Of a stretch of DNA of 64,000 bases, positions 294 through 43,240 are shown piece after piece; the first letter of the stretch is position 1; each line of letters opens with the position of its first letter. Origin of the DNA: a bacterium (lineage in GTDB: Bacteria > UBP6 > UBA1177 > JAKLFG01); NCBI GenBank assembly GCA_022709425.1, contig JAKLIW010000015.1:1-64000 (forward strand), read 5' to 3'. The position numbers and the translations under genes were made by a program. The notes beneath the pieces are model-generated. The model did no database searches. It was not told the DNA's origin and was given only the letters and a program-made list of their open reading frames with translations.

Positions 294-785
294 TTAGCCG
301 CAGCAACCGCCGCCGCAGGAACCGTCGTGACAGTGTTCGTGCTTCGGCATCTCGCAGCCGATCTCAAGGAGTTCTATCTCGAAAACGAGCGTTTCGCCGG
401 CGAGCGGATGGTTGGCGTCGAGCGTCACTTCGTCGCCCGCGATCTCGGCGATGACGGCGGGAAGCTGATGGCCCTGCCCGTCGTGCAGATCGAACTGCAT
501 CCCGACCTCGAGTTCGGCATCCTTCGGGAACTGCGAACGCGGGACCTTGAGGACGAATTCGTCCAGATATTCGCCGTATCCTTCGGTCGCCGGGATGGTG
601 ACGGTCTTCTTGTCGCCGACCGCCATGTCGACGAGCGCCGCATCGAAACCCGGGATGACCATCTCTTCGCCCGTCTTGAAGACGAACGGCTCGGCCCGTT
701 CGCGCGATGAGTCGAATATCTCGCCGCTCTCGAACTTACCGGTATAATGCACCTTTACGACATCGCCCTTCACTACTTTCGCCAT
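294..785 (-). CDS. slyD: FKBP-type peptidyl-prolyl cis-trans isomerase, SlyD family
   Basis: This is a 163-residue cytoplasmic prolyl isomerase and chaperone. The N-terminus 'MAKVVKGDVVKVHYTGKFE' is the FKBP core, followed by the insert-in-flap chaperone loop (about residues 70-120), the return to the FKBP fold, and a metal-binding tail ending 'HEHCHDGSCGGGCCG'. In SlyD such His/Cys tails bind nickel and deliver it to hydrogenase maturation; that role here is inference. The frame extends upstream to 851, but the start at 785 is chosen because AAAGGAGA lies just before that ATG and the homologous N-terminus begins there. A sigma70-like promoter lies at 824-851. It is transcribed alone, divergently from the lipoprotein at 935. 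Confidence 0.93.
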   Translation of the reverse strand: MAKVVKGDVVKVHYTGKFESGEIFDSSRERAEPFVFKTGEEMVIPGFDAALVDMAVGDKKTVTIPATEGYGEYLDEFVLKVPRSQFPKDAELEVGMQFDLHDGQGHQLPAVIAEIAGDEVTLDANHPLAGETLVFEIELLEIGCEMPKHEHCHDGSCGGGCCG

Positions 786-823
786 CGTTGTCTCCTTTAT
801 AACCAAGAAAATAAAAGCAGGGT

Positions 824-851
824 ATCGTAACCGCGACCGGCCGAATTGCAA
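824..851 (-). promoter_or_regulatory. sigma70-like promoter of slyD
   Basis: On the minus strand, TTGCAA (846-851) and TACGAT (824-829) are separated by 16 bp, about 40 nt upstream of the slyD start codon. Confidence 0.45.
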
Positions 852-4602: not shown

Positions 4603-4980
4603 TCAATCGCGCGGGTTGTCGCCCAGATCCTTGAGCAGTTTGTACGCGGCGGCACGGAGCGGCGGCAGGTCGGTCTTGATGGTCTGCCACACGATGGATG
4701 TATCGACGCCGAAATACTCGTGGGCGAGTTTGTTCCGCATACCGATCATCTCGGCCCACGCCATGTCGGGATGCTTCTTCTTGACATCGGCGGGCAGATT
4801 CCTGACCGCTTCGCCGATTATCTCCAACGCGCGGACCACCGCGAAGATCGTTTTGACATCGGTCGCAAACTTGCGGAACCGCATTCCTTTCGTGAAACTC
4901 TTTATCGCGTCGACCGACGATACGATGTCGTTGAGATAATCGCGCGCTTCCCGTTTTTGCGGCGACAACCGGTCAGACAA
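4603..4980 (-). CDS. hepT: HepT-like HEPN toxin (DUF86)
   Basis: 125 residues of the HEPN/DUF86 family. The RNase signature R-x4-H-x-Y reads 'RNKLAHEYFGVD' at about residues 82-93. In studied HepT-MntA pairs HepT is an RNase toxin whose Tyr in this motif is AMPylated by MntA. The start codon is TTG at 4980, lying inside the end of mntA (TTGTCTGA, 8-nt overlap), with GAGGTGG just upstream; this points to tight coupling that keeps the toxin below the antitoxin. Convergent with the phosphoribosyltransferase gene (3 nt between stops). Confidence 0.9.
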   Translation of the reverse strand: MSDRLSPQKREARDYLNDIVSSVDAIKSFTKGMRFRKFATDVKTIFAVVRALEIIGEAVRNLPADVKKKHPDMAWAEMIGMRNKLAHEYFGVDTSIVWQTIKTDLPPLRAAAYKLLKDLGDNPRD

Positions 4981-5263
4981 GGACCACCTCGCGCAGGATA
5001 TGTTGGCCGATGAACGGTTTGAGCGCGTTCTTCGTCACCAGATCGACCTTGACGCCGAGAAGTTCCTGCAGGTGCGCTTCGAGCCGCAGAAAGGCAACGA
5101 AGCCGACCGGCCGCGAGAATTCGACCAGCAGGTCGACATCGCTTCCTTTACGCTGTTCGTTGCGGGCGTAGGAACCGAACACGCCGATGGAGGCGACGCC
5201 GTATTCGGACGCAAGTTCCGCCCGGTGCGCGTTCAATGTTTTTCTGATTCTTGCAAGGTCCAT
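4973..5263 (-). CDS. mntA: MntA-type nucleotidyltransferase antitoxin
   Basis: 96 residues of the minimal nucleotidyltransferase fold. The catalytic GSx10DxD motif is intact: 'GSYARNEQRKGSDVDLLVEF' at about residues 30-49, followed by a third acidic strand ('VKVDLVTK'). The family AMPylates its HepT partner to neutralise it. An in-frame ATG at 5278 lacks a ribosome binding site; 5263 has GAGG five bases upstream and is preferred. The gene precedes and overlaps hepT, the usual order. A near-consensus promoter with an internal palindrome sits at 5291-5319. Confidence 0.9.
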   Translation of the reverse strand: MDLARIRKTLNAHRAELASEYGVASIGVFGSYARNEQRKGSDVDLLVEFSRPVGFVAFLRLEAHLQELLGVKVDLVTKNALKPFIGQHILREVVLV

Positions 5264-5290
5264 GGTCGCCTCATGCACAAAAACAAAGGC

Positions 5291-5361: not shown

Positions 5362-6885
5362 TCAGATCACCGTCAGGCTGCAGCCGCTGGAGCCGCTCGC
5401 TTTGCGGGGGGTACCGTTGTCGGGAACGATCACGGTGTCGGGATTCTCTTCGGTATCGGCGTTCGCCGTCTCGTCGGTCGCGCCGTTGTCGGTCACCGGC
5501 GTATCGTCGGGGGTGACGCTATTGTCGGGGGTCGCGGTATCGGCATCGACCACCGGCGCCTCGGTGCAGGGCGTCGTATCGAAGTAGGTGCAGTCCTCCT
5601 TGCACGGAGCGTCGGTCCCCTCGGCGTAATTGCCGAGCGTCGAACAGTCGGTAGTCCCACCGTCGCAGAATTCGTTGCCCTCCTTCTTCCCGTCGCCGCA
5701 GACGGTCGCCACGCAGCCCGACTCATCCCAGCCGTCACAGGTATCGTTACACGAAGCGGGGCCGGTAGCATACTGACCGAGAGAGGCGCAGTCTATCGTG
5801 TTTCCGTCGCACACTTCCGGATCCTTCACCTTCTCATCGCCGCACACCGGCGGCTTTTCCTGACAGACGGTCAGATCGTAGCCCCAGCACCCCTCGTGGC
5901 ACGGCGCCATGACGCCCGGAACGAAGTTGGGATCCTGCTCGCCGCAGTCGACCTCGGAACCTTCGGCGCAGACATCGTCGGCATCGCCGCAGGACTGCGT
6001 CTCGATGAGACCGTGACCGGTGAAGGTCTGCACCTGCGTATTTATCCAGTCGCGGTAGGGCAGGACATAGGTGTAATAACCATCGCGGTTCGAGTAGCAG
6101 GTCTGACCCCCGAACGAGGTGACGCCCGATATCACATAGGCATCGTTCTGGGTGGTGAGGAACGGGCCGCCCGAATCGCCCTGACAGCTCCCCGACGGAT
6201 CGCCCACTTCGATGACATCCTTGCCCCAGTAGGGATTGAGATCGAGCAGTTTCGCATCGCCCATGCGGTGGATGCCCGAATCGAACGCGCCGGTGGCGGT
6301 GATGCCGTACCCGACGATCTTTCCCATCTCTCCTTCGGTCTCAGCGGGGTTATCGCGGATGCCATAGGTCTCGAGATGGTATATTTTGCGGTCGAGGTGG
6401 ATGACCGCCATGTCGACATTGTCGCCCCACGACGATATGTTGCCGGTCCACGTATCGTGTTTTTTGATGGTCTTTGCGTTGGCGAGCACATCGCCGACGA
6501 ACATGTTGGCGCCGTTGCGCACCACGATCTTCGACGGATCGGCCGGACCGTCGAGCACCAGCGTACCGTTCTCCTTGAGATAGACACAGTGTCCCGCCGT
6601 CAGCAACACCTCGGGGTCAATAAGGGTCGCCGTGCAGGCGCCCTGCCCCGTTGCGCCGCCCTGCGTCACGGTCATCACGAGTCCGACCACGCCGCGGAAC
6701 TGCTTGTACCCCGTTTCGGTGCCGTTGACGATCATCGGTTGCGGCTCGGCGACCGACACCACCGTGATGCCGCGTCCCGCGAGCCATTGCTCCAGCTCGT
6801 TGAGTCCCGCGATACCGGGCCGTTCGACCGCCGCAAGCGTCGATACGGCACAAAACAGCGACATCGCCATCATCGTGCGCGTCAT
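5362..6885 (-). CDS. secreted trypsin-like serine protease with Cys-rich repeats and C-terminal Cys tag
   Basis: 507 residues. The signal peptide 'MTRTMMAMSLFCAVSTLAA' begins at 6885, where GGAGGG lies four bases upstream (the frame itself runs on to 6921). An S1 domain follows with the full triad: His in 'LTAGHCV' (about 98), Asp in 'DMAVIHLD' (about 157) and Ser in 'GDSGGPF' (about 237). Then come several Cys-rich repeats of the 'CGDGKKEGNEFCDG' type, an Asp/Thr/Pro linker, and the terminal 'SGSSGCSLTVI'. The same arrangement ends the neighbouring C25 protease. There is no lipobox, so anchoring, if any, must use the C-terminus. A role in processing surface proteins or in nutrition is inference. 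Confidence 0.88.
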   Translation of the reverse strand: MTRTMMAMSLFCAVSTLAAVERPGIAGLNELEQWLAGRGITVVSVAEPQPMIVNGTETGYKQFRGVVGLVMTVTQGGATGQGACTATLIDPEVLLTAGHCVYLKENGTLVLDGPADPSKIVVRNGANMFVGDVLANAKTIKKHDTWTGNISSWGDNVDMAVIHLDRKIYHLETYGIRDNPAETEGEMGKIVGYGITATGAFDSGIHRMGDAKLLDLNPYWGKDVIEVGDPSGSCQGDSGGPFLTTQNDAYVISGVTSFGGQTCYSNRDGYYTYVLPYRDWINTQVQTFTGHGLIETQSCGDADDVCAEGSEVDCGEQDPNFVPGVMAPCHEGCWGYDLTVCQEKPPVCGDEKVKDPEVCDGNTIDCASLGQYATGPASCNDTCDGWDESGCVATVCGDGKKEGNEFCDGGTTDCSTLGNYAEGTDAPCKEDCTYFDTTPCTEAPVVDADTATPDNSVTPDDTPVTDNGATDETANADTEENPDTVIVPDNGTPRKASGSSGCSLTVI

Positions 6886-6990
6886 GTTTCCCTCCGTCAG
6901 AAAAAAATAGAGAACCACCACTCATAAAAAAACAAGCAAGAGCGGGTCCGGCTATTTTTTGCTAGTGATGATGAATAGTTAAGAAAACGC

Positions 6991-8466
6991 TCAGATGACG
7001 ATGCTACACCCGCCGGAGGTATCGTCGGCGGGCACAGCATCGTCGTTTACGGGGGGATCATCATCGGTGACGGTATCGTCGTCGTTCGGTTCTTCGACCA
7101 CGGCATGGTCGTAGAGGGTGAGCGACGGGTCGCCGAAATAGTTGAGCATCAGTTTGTGGTCGATGACGCGGAAGACCGTCTCGTCGCCCAGTTCGTCGCG
7201 GATGTCGGCGAAGACGCGCCCTGCATAGCCGCCGTCGAGCATGCGGTCGAAGAAGAGGACCGCGCTGTTGTCCTCGCCGAAGGTCGTCGCGTCGAGCGGC
7301 GCATCCTGATCGAGCCACTTCATCGCCGAAGGATCGGTGACGCTCGACGAACTGATGACGCCGACCGCCGCGCCGTCGGCCATGAACCGGTAGGTTATCG
7401 ATCCGGGGTCGCTCACGAAACCGACGAGGCACGATATCGCGACCACGAACGACGGCTTCCCCGATGCGATGTCGGCGCCGTTGGTTGAGTCGATGAGTGG
7501 CGGGCTGTCGACCTCGTCGTTCTCGCCCTGTTCGTTGCCGTTGGTGTCCTCGCGCCAGACGGTCCGCACCACGCCGGTCGGCATCCCGTGGCCGCCCCAG
7601 AGCACCATACCGTAGCCTTTCTCCCATTCGCTGACGAGATTCTCCTGCGTCAGCGGGATCTCGTAGTCGAACTGCGTCGGATAGTGCCCCTCCGCCTCGT
7701 ACAGCCGGGTGTAGGTGACGCCGGGATGGTCGGGCAGGATGTTGTGGATGAACCATTCGGCCGTTTCGGCCGTCTCCTTGTTCTCGTGCATCGTCTGGAA
7801 GACCTTGTAGCCGTCGAACCAGATGAACGAGAGCGGGAACAGCATCTTTTTGCGGTAGGCGGTCGCCTCTTCCGACGTCTGCATATACCCGACGATGTGG
7901 CCCAGCAGTTCGTCGAGTTCGTCCAGATCGCCGAAATAGACCGGGATGCGGCCTACCGCGAGTTCAGAGCCGAAGTCGATGCCGCCGTCGCCCATGTCGA
8001 CCGGCAGTTGCGCGAGGACGCCGTCGCCGTTGAGATCCCACGAGCCCGACAGGTCGCCGTAGTAGAGGTCGGTCGGTATCTTCACGCAGGAATAACCGGT
8101 GTCGGCGCACGGGTCGCTCACCCCGTCGCCCTGCGGCTGGCCGAGCACCATCGGCACATCGCCCAGTTTCGGCGACGGGTCGCCGATGAGCAGGACGAAA
8201 TCGTACCCGGCGCGGTTGGCGACGAGCCAGTCGCGTATCTTGGCGGCGCGCGCCGCTCCCTTGTCGCCCACCCCGCCGTAGTCGCTCTCGGTGACGACGC
8301 GGACGGTGAAGCCGCGCTTCTCCTTTTCGGCGATGAGGTCACCCAGCACCGCCGAGCCGTTCTTGATATAGTCGGTCGTCACGATAAAAAGCCCCTTGTC
8401 GGGCTCCACCGCGGTGAGCGGCAGCGCCAAAAGAAGCGCCGCGAGTAGCATGATCATCCGTTCCAT
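6991..8466 (-). CDS. secreted C25 (gingipain-like) cysteine protease with C-terminal Cys tag
   Basis: 491 residues. The start at 8466 (signal peptide 'MERMIMLLAALLLALPLTA') is supported by GAGGGAGGG just upstream. The C25 catalytic pair is visible: His in 'VLWGGHG' (about residue 292) and Cys in 'VVAISCLVG' (about 345). The family-typical 'LMLNYFGDPSLTLYD' closes the domain. An Asp-rich linker and the terminal 'DDTSGGCSIVI' follow, matching the end of the trypsin-like protease downstream. In Bacteroidota, C25 proteases reach the surface by type IX secretion with a C-terminal domain; no such domain is seen here. The gene begins 11 nt after the lipoprotein gene ending at 8478, so the two form an operon. 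Confidence 0.85.
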   Translation of the reverse strand: MERMIMLLAALLLALPLTAVEPDKGLFIVTTDYIKNGSAVLGDLIAEKEKRGFTVRVVTESDYGGVGDKGAARAAKIRDWLVANRAGYDFVLLIGDPSPKLGDVPMVLGQPQGDGVSDPCADTGYSCVKIPTDLYYGDLSGSWDLNGDGVLAQLPVDMGDGGIDFGSELAVGRIPVYFGDLDELDELLGHIVGYMQTSEEATAYRKKMLFPLSFIWFDGYKVFQTMHENKETAETAEWFIHNILPDHPGVTYTRLYEAEGHYPTQFDYEIPLTQENLVSEWEKGYGMVLWGGHGMPTGVVRTVWREDTNGNEQGENDEVDSPPLIDSTNGADIASGKPSFVVAISCLVGFVSDPGSITYRFMADGAAVGVISSSSVTDPSAMKWLDQDAPLDATTFGEDNSAVLFFDRMLDGGYAGRVFADIRDELGDETVFRVIDHKLMLNYFGDPSLTLYDHAVVEEPNDDDTVTDDDPPVNDDAVPADDTSGGCSIVI

Positions 8467-42307: not shown

Positions 42308-43240
42308 ATGGAGACCTTTGTCTGGAATGCGGATCCCACCTTACTGGTGCTCGGCCCGCTGCAGCTTCGTTATTACGGGATACTGTTTGGCCTGACCCTG
42401 CTCATCGGCTACTGGTTCTTCCAGAAACAGTTGGAGCGCTACGGCTACCCCGAACCGGTGGCCGAAAGCTATCTGGTATGGGCCGTCATCGGCCTCATCA
42501 TCGGCGCACGCCTTGTCCACTGCTTTTTCTACGAACCCGATTACTACCTCAGCCATCCCGGCGAGATCATCAAGGTCTGGAAAGGGGGCATCGCGAGCCA
42601 CGGGGCAACCGTGGGGCTCTTCCTCACCGCCATCTGGTTCACGCGGAAACACAAGATGCCGTTCCTGAAACTGGGCGACGGCATCGTCTACGCGGCGGCG
42701 CTCGGCGCCACCTTCGTGCGGCTCGGCAACTTCATGAACAGCGAGATCGTCGGCCGCATCACCGATTCGTGGTGGGGTGTCAAATTCCTGCGCAACCCCG
42801 ACGACATCATACTGGCGCGCAAGGCGGCCTTCGCGGCCAACGCATCGTGCGATCTCTCTTCGATCGACTGCCTGCTCCCCTACTGGCCGGTTCGTTATCC
42901 GAGTCAGCTCATCGAGGCGATCGGCGGCCTGACGGTGTTCCTCGCGTTACTTCTCACCCTGAAACTCATCAAGGGAAAGAACTATCCCGGTATCTTTTCG
43001 GGCGTATTCCTGACCGGCTATTTTTCTTTCCGTTTCTTCGTTGAATTCATCAAGGAGTTCCAAGAGGAGTACCGCATCGGCGCATCGCTCACGATGGGTC
43101 AGTGGCTCTCGATCCCCTTCGTGGCCATAGGGATATGGTTCATCTACCTCGCGCTACGCCACGGCCCTGAAGCGCTCCCCGTGCCTGCGGCGGCACCGGC
43201 GCAAAAACAGAGCGGCGGAAAAAAGCACAAAAAGCACTAG
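42308..43240 (+). CDS. lgt: prolipoprotein diacylglyceryl transferase
   Basis: 310 residues, seven membrane helices. The family signatures 'LRYYGILFGLTLLIGYWFF', 'KGGIASHGATVG' and 'VRLGNFMNSEIVG' (Lgt signature with Arg, Asn and Glu) are intact, as are 'RYPSQLIEAIGG' and 'FFVEFIKEFQ'. It attaches diacylglycerol to the lipobox Cys of prolipoproteins, fitting the many lipoproteins here. An unusual basic C-terminal tail ('KQSGGKKHKKH') extends past the last helix. The 42-nt gap to the convergent nrdG shows no terminator. Confidence 0.95.
   Translation: METFVWNADPTLLVLGPLQLRYYGILFGLTLLIGYWFFQKQLERYGYPEPVAESYLVWAVIGLIIGARLVHCFFYEPDYYLSHPGEIIKVWKGGIASHGATVGLFLTAIWFTRKHKMPFLKLGDGIVYAAALGATFVRLGNFMNSEIVGRITDSWWGVKFLRNPDDIILARKAAFAANASCDLSSIDCLLPYWPVRYPSQLIEAIGGLTVFLALLLTLKLIKGKNYPGIFSGVFLTGYFSFRFFVEFIKEFQEEYRIGASLTMGQWLSIPFVAIGIWFIYLALRHGPEALPVPAAAPAQKQSGGKKHKKH

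Follow-up and report, generated by a model that had tools for sequence, protein, structure and literature searches.

The window analyzed here, a stretch of 64,000 nucleotides from the start of contig JAKLIW010000015.1 (assembly GCA_022709425.1, lineage UBP6; UBA1177; JAKLFG01), carries two neighboring protease genes whose products end in a similar short, Cys-bearing sequence, which we call the tag. The first gene (5362..6885, minus strand) encodes a trypsin-like protease with a signal peptide (Pfam PF00089, 1.3e-19), and its ATG at 6885 lies downstream of a GGAGG site. A linker rich in Asp, Thr, Pro and Asn (approximately 5386..5553) leads to the tag GCSLTVI and a stop codon (5362..5385), giving the C-terminus SGSSGCSLTVI (RKASGSSGCSLTVI) with the stop at 5362. 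The second gene (6991..8466, minus strand) encodes a C25 (gingipain-family) protease, also with a signal peptide (Pfam PF01364, 3.9e-27), with MERMIMLLAALLLALPLTA as the likely start and its ATG at 8466. Here an Asp/Thr/Pro-rich (D/T/P) linker (approximately 7012..7095) precedes the tag GCSIVI and its stop (6991..7011), so that the protein ends DDTSGGCSIVI (ADDTSGGCSIVI) with the stop at 6991. Both tags are of a form with one Cys. An earlier note on this DNA had placed the two tails here and had assigned the proteases to unrelated catalytic folds; we confirmed the positions on the minus strand, and the Pfam matches (Trypsin and Peptidase_C25) bear out the folds.

Orthologs retain these endings. 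In three metagenome-assembled genomes the trypsin-like protease ends SGSDGCSLTVL (81% identity), GGSGGCALTMI (75%) and GGSGGCALMVI (74%), and orthologs of the C25 protease end TSGGCSLVL once and TSGGCGLVRLW twice. The Cys, which is central to the sorting or anchoring role proposed in the earlier note, is therefore conserved in all three orthologs of the first protease and likewise in those of the second.

The tag across the source genome and its relatives

The source genome is 3.01 Mb in size; DNA patterns were run on the whole of it, and approximately 2 Mb were read as stretches for open reading frames (ORFs). The pattern GGNTGYWSNNTNNTNNTNTRR, which permits AGY and ACN as well as TCN codons at the Ser position, matched 21 times in the whole genome and its one-codon-longer version matched 4 times, against 0 for reversed-pattern controls; a few of the matches lack a real stop or sit in short frames, and TGG takes the place of the stop in at least one of the 21. 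At least 28 proteins of the source genome were found to end in [GA]CxC[ST][VLI][VLI]F or in a one-Cys form, in each case after a D/T/P linker, so the tag is by no means confined to the two proteases. With the Cys also retained in orthologs, the idea passes both tests that the earlier note had set for refuting it. Its main form, [DN]GCGC[ST][VIL][VIL]F, is absent from the window proteins. The S-G-x-C-S-(I/L)-x-V-I tail described previously is thus a real shared signal, but the one-Cys version seen in the window is the minority version, the main form being GCGC[ST]hhF, where h is aliphatic. Similarly, the idea of two folds converging on one ending holds in that unrelated exported proteins share the tag, yet it understates their number: with relatives counted in, the tagged proteins sort into 21 sequence clusters, or about 20 families.

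In a set of 1,641 simple ORF calls, 17 had the strict motif at the C-terminus and none had it internally. By a simple hydropathy rule, a start resembling a signal peptide is seen in 25 of the 28 tagged ORFs, compared with 479 of all 1252 ORFs (Fisher p 2e-8). Four residues follow the tag Cys in 57 of 71 tails, five in 11, six in 2 and three in 1, although these counts are partly biased by the search patterns. Recent copying of DNA was rejected as the source of the common ending, as the tag codons differ from one another. These results confirm that the tag is a real, non-chance C-terminal Cys signal common to unrelated exported proteins.

Comparison among relatives places the tag within one clade. 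The strict form is present in all five genomes of the source organism's own family, which have 7-19 strict tags each, and in two genera belonging to a sister family; outside the own family the count is 0-3 per genome. Relaxed CxC forms extend to all remaining genera of the order but one (g4), in whose 15 genomes there is essentially no CxC tag, a result that concerns the CxC form only because the patterns are blind to one-Cys forms. In a set of 386 genomes, most of them from other phyla, no strict tag with a real stop was found outside the order; one extra match ends in TGG. The tag is therefore both genome-wide and clade-specific. Where homologous pairs could be compared, it is conserved above the 40 residues that precede it: orthologs retain the Cys and the hydrophobic end while the linker varies. 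One tagged metalloprotease illustrates this well, as its orthologs in various families and genera have the endings ACGCTLVF, GCGCSLMF, GCGCTIVF, GCSCRLIF, GCSCGLIY, GCSCSFISF and ACSALLI, keeping the tag although their linkers cannot be aligned.

The earlier note had observed that the tails lack the membrane helix and basic cluster of known C-terminal sorting signals, and this holds across the tagged proteins, which end at hydrophobic residues. A helix hidden behind a frameshift or stop read-through was also considered and rejected as a general explanation: only 6 hydrophobic matches were seen in 84 frames (three after each of 28 tag stops), and several of these belong to the signal peptide of the gene that follows. 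The NCBIfam models of CTERM signals gave no match to 15 tag tails at E values up to 1. We looked for the helix and the basic end in the tag and found neither, and for this reason do not file it as MYXO-CTERM.

The tag nevertheless has ties to MYXO-CTERM, for the same genome encodes a myxosortase-like protease (described below) and five tripartite tails of MYXO/JDVT type, each with a CxC[SA] head, a membrane helix and an Arg cluster. The tail at C45:85128 runs GCGCSTVG...LLLPALFLLLRRKISRS (GCGCSTVGDTTTASSALFLLLPALFLLLRRKISRS) and scores 22.3 bits against TIGR03901 (MYXO-CTERM; cut-off 20). That at C45:91422 (C45:91422-94559) runs PCDCSMIAG...ARRPRRES and comes nearest to JDVT-CTERM, at 21.0 bits, below the cut-off of 27. 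The others are at C45:88271 (GCQCALVES...SRRVYGDK), C45:82016 (GCSCSIVT...RSRRRDHSV) and C2:4275-7385 (GCGCSVVPV...VRRRMAA). Four of these proteins, when aligned, form a single family of paralogs about 1,030 residues long, and a fifth family member, C1:249143-252175, ends in the short form, CCCGCSLVF*. It is 60% identical to C45:91422-94559 over 1,013 amino acids, with an alignment unbroken up to the CxCS head; at that same position one protein stops, and the other continues into a helix and an Arg cluster. On contig C2, moreover, a short-tag gene (C2:2478-4148, SGCGCSLI*) adjoins the tripartite gene C2:4275-7385 (SGCGCSVV..helix..RRR). In the approximately 2 Mb read, there are 28 short tags against 5 tripartite tails. 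Because paralogs carry both endings, the short tag is the signature motif found in MYXO/JDVT-type signals, minus their helix and Arg cluster; judged from these alignments, it is a helix-less variant related to MYXO-CTERM by paralogy of the carrier proteins, and it probably works in a similar manner. Our search of the literature found no helix-less relative in the reports covered.

Candidate processing enzymes

We examined two enzyme classes that might act on such a signal. The first is the CPBP family (PF02517). All genomes examined from the order encode one member (C3:11594-12214 in the source genome) with the intact catalytic motifs EEFFFR, FGxxH and HxxxN, and the phylum's one other family has weaker relatives. 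The best NCBIfam matches of this order-wide protein are all myxosortases (MrtP, 90.7 bits; Mrt_core, 84.2; MrtC, 80.5; MrtS, 70.8; MrtJ, 66.5), and its orthologs within the order give the same picture, with Mrt_core scores of 76-84 bits. A sequence search of the PDB with this protein returned no match. A second CPBP protein, C11:14862-15131, has equivalents in four other genomes (L298, L300, L301 and L302) and is restricted to the own family; it reads QEFLYR and lacks HxxxN, and we rejected it as the general enzyme on account of that restriction and its degenerate catalytic motifs. The gene beside it in two of these genomes (L301:1819-3270 and L302:1805-3112, both minus strand) encodes proteins ending PGKKDCGSGGEGGC and PGKEDCGSGGEGEC, which represent another conserved Cys-bearing C-terminus, without a hydrophobic end.

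The second class is the Lgt family (PF01790), for which there are three to seven matches per genome in the order and phylum, five of them in the source genome. The canonical prolipoprotein diacylglyceryl transferase lies in the window itself (42308..43240, plus strand; TIGR00544, 172.6 bits) and is a candidate for lipidation of the tag. In a tree of the family, four groups are order-wide, g4 included, one is found in the own family only, and one comprises g4 and f3. No group matches the distribution of the tag, and Lgt phylogeny was rejected as a marker for it. The Lgt matches form old orthologous groups, and most of the paralogs whose sequences were read carry GC[FY]xxGCC[FY]G where the canonical copy has GNFMNSE. 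One frame of 1,252 residues (C12:60966-64724, minus strand) fuses an Lgt-like membrane domain to what appear to be a propeller of the two-component-regulator type and an AraC-type helix-turn-helix, the domain names other than Lgt being read from the sequence. Similar frames (1,241-1,252 residues) occur in three other own-family genomes, and the Lgt domain occurs alone in other genera.

Two further features of the window were recorded. Directly downstream of the trypsin gene (4603-5278, minus strand) are two small overlapping genes that resemble a HEPN/MNT toxin-antitoxin pair, in which a putative nucleotidyltransferase motif, GSYARNEQRKGSDVDLLVEF, could be read. At 294-851 (minus strand) is a SlyD-like FKBP whose C-terminal tail, rich in His and Cys (HEHCHDGSCGGGCCG), probably binds metal.

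A possible pathway and its alternatives

The anchoring or sorting role put forward in the earlier note is the best reading of a Cys signal shared by unrelated exported proteins. On balance, we lean toward the tag being a C-terminal surface-sorting signal that has the Cys signature of the myxosortase pathway without its helix and Arg cluster, with the Cys lipidated, the end trimmed, and the protein left with a C-terminal lipid anchor. We infer the lipidation, the cleavage and the enzyme roles as follows. The tagged protein would be exported by Sec and lose its signal peptide. An Lgt-like enzyme at the outer face of the inner membrane would then lipidate the tag Cys (the second of GCGC, or the sole Cys), which the short hydrophobic end SVVF would help to dock. 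The myxosortase-like CPBP protease would probably cut away the residues past the Cys, much as Rce1 takes off -aaX, and the protein would then be held by its C-terminal lipid, the D/T/P linker serving as a spacer. That this places the protein on the cell surface is our guess. This course is suggested by the shared signature and by the enzyme classes that the genome encodes. A precedent is Myxococcus xanthus, in which the CPBP protease MrtX cleaves the MYXO-CTERM of TraA in a Cys-dependent manner, and in which lipidation has been proposed to precede cleavage, with Lgt as the leading candidate (PMC11980579).

Several observations weigh against this proposal. The myxosortase-like CPBP protein falls under every curated cut-off (Mrt_core, 84.2 versus 100), as do its orthologs. 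It and the four order-wide Lgt groups are also present in the 15 g4 genomes that lack the CxC tag, and therefore no enzyme that we tested tracks the tag. T2SSK, which belongs to the secretion system used in M. xanthus, did not rise above the cut-off in any tag-bearing genome, though its model is short, and we rejected it as an export partner. In the MYXO-CTERM pathway itself, the lipid on the Cys is a prediction and the acyltransferase only a proposed one (PMC11980579). The known substrates of CPBP sorting enzymes are tripartite, and our proposal requires that a helix-less end would be accepted as well. Finally, two tagged proteins (C1:67876-70782 and C23:40113-41846) have an N-terminal lipobox in addition to a C-terminal GCGC tag. 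In these the tag is therefore not needed merely for membrane attachment and does more than supply a first anchor. They also show that the mirror arrangement drawn in the earlier note, in which lipoproteins run Cys-linker-domain and tagged proteins domain-linker-Cys, is not a strict one. Both are repeat proteins and, from their sequences, may be lipidated at both ends.

The alternative that fares best, though we consider it unlikely, retains lipidation and trimming but assigns them to enzymes private to the own family, namely an Lgt paralog (C45:187583) and the CPBP protein at C11:14862, in place of the order-wide protease. Each of the five own-family genomes has both genes, neither occurs in any other genome of the order that was examined, and it is the own family that is rich in strict tags. 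Genera g5, g6, g7 and g8, however, have tags without either gene; the private CPBP has QEFLYR instead of EExxxR and no HxxxN; and family-restricted genes that are unrelated to the tag are to be expected in number.

Slightly less probable again is that the Cys is joined to a surface partner through a disulfide or another thiol bond, so that the tag is a covalent docking tail without a lipid. A Cys exposed at the tip of a flexible linker would be well placed for such docking, and the CxC pair could be redox active. No partner protein came to light, although no search aimed at one was made. This would leave unexplained the strict aliphatic-aliphatic-Phe end, the fixed distance to the C-terminus, and the head that the tag has in common with MYXO-CTERM-type tails. 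One-Cys forms are common and conserved, and an intramolecular CxC disulfide is therefore disfavored as a general function. Kinship to MYXO-CTERM, as judged by sequence, favors a lipid on the Cys over a disulfide.

We think it doubtful that a PDZ-type protease, a chaperone or a secretion machine reads the hydrophobic C-terminus and its free carboxylate as the signal, with the Cys secondary. The tag does nearly always end hhF, hhL or hhI at the extreme C-terminus, and the strict motif is never internal. Yet in orthologs whose ends have changed (GCALMVI, GCGLVRLW, ACSALLI) it is the Cys that varies least, and the tripartite paralogs have the same Cys head with a different end. Least probable is that the tags are functionless remnants of tripartite signals that lost their helix and basic end: one paralogous family does hold both endings, but the short form is the commoner, its length is regular (allowing for the bias noted above), and among species it is better conserved than its linker.

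The C-terminal sorting signal that we favor can be set beside several known systems. It resembles the MYXO-CTERM/MrtX system of the Myxococcota in its signal-peptide substrates, its GCGC-type signature with a key Cys, the related CPBP protease and the dozens of substrates, and differs in having three to six residues past the Cys in place of a transmembrane helix and Arg cluster. JDVT-CTERM and Synerg-CTERM, with MrtJ and MrtS, also involve a related CPBP protease and, in JDVT, an invariant Cys, and one local tripartite tail is nearest to JDVT-CTERM; those signals, however, are tripartite, and JDVT-CTERM is reported as a gene pair of one enzyme and one substrate (PMC11980579). The lipobox of lipoproteins (Lgt/LspA) likewise places a Cys beside small and aliphatic residues, the tag resembling a reversed lipobox, and D/T/P linkers also come after the Cys in some lipoproteins here; the lipobox is N-terminal with a proven lipid, whereas the tag is C-terminal with an inferred one. 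GlyGly-CTERM is the C-terminal signal, processed by rhombosortase, of the secreted trypsin-like protease VesB, and is similar to the tag in that respect, but it consists of GlyGly, a helix and a basic end and is handled by a rhomboid enzyme. The eukaryotic CaaX box (prenyltransferase, Rce1) is like the tag in that the very C-terminus consists of a Cys and then a few aliphatic residues, and Rce1 and myxosortase belong to the same CPBP family. CaaX proteins are cytosolic and prenylated, with exactly three residues after the Cys, whereas tagged proteins are predicted to be exported and usually have four. A bolder description, which we hold to be possible rather than probable, is that the tag is an extracytoplasmic counterpart of CaaX: a helix-less lipidation and sorting signal of about 9 residues with a MYXO-CTERM head, processed by a CPBP (Rce1-family) protease and possibly lipidated by a member of the expanded Lgt set, on dozens of exported proteins.

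For sortase, rhombosortase, archaeosortase and myxosortase alike, the signal that is processed has been described as tripartite and as including a membrane helix (PMC11980579). The presence of helix-less and tripartite forms in one genome, and even in one paralogous family, provides a natural experiment on what such a pathway requires. Should the Cys carry a lipid, little more than the length of the CaaX box of animals and yeast would be enough for a complete surface-sorting signal. The helix-less form brings surface sorting in bacteria closer to CaaX processing. The tag would also expose a class of surface proteins, including proteases, propellers and metalloproteases, that current models overlook, and the unusual set of Lgt paralogs in these genomes is a place where an enzyme that lipidates a C-terminal Cys might be found.

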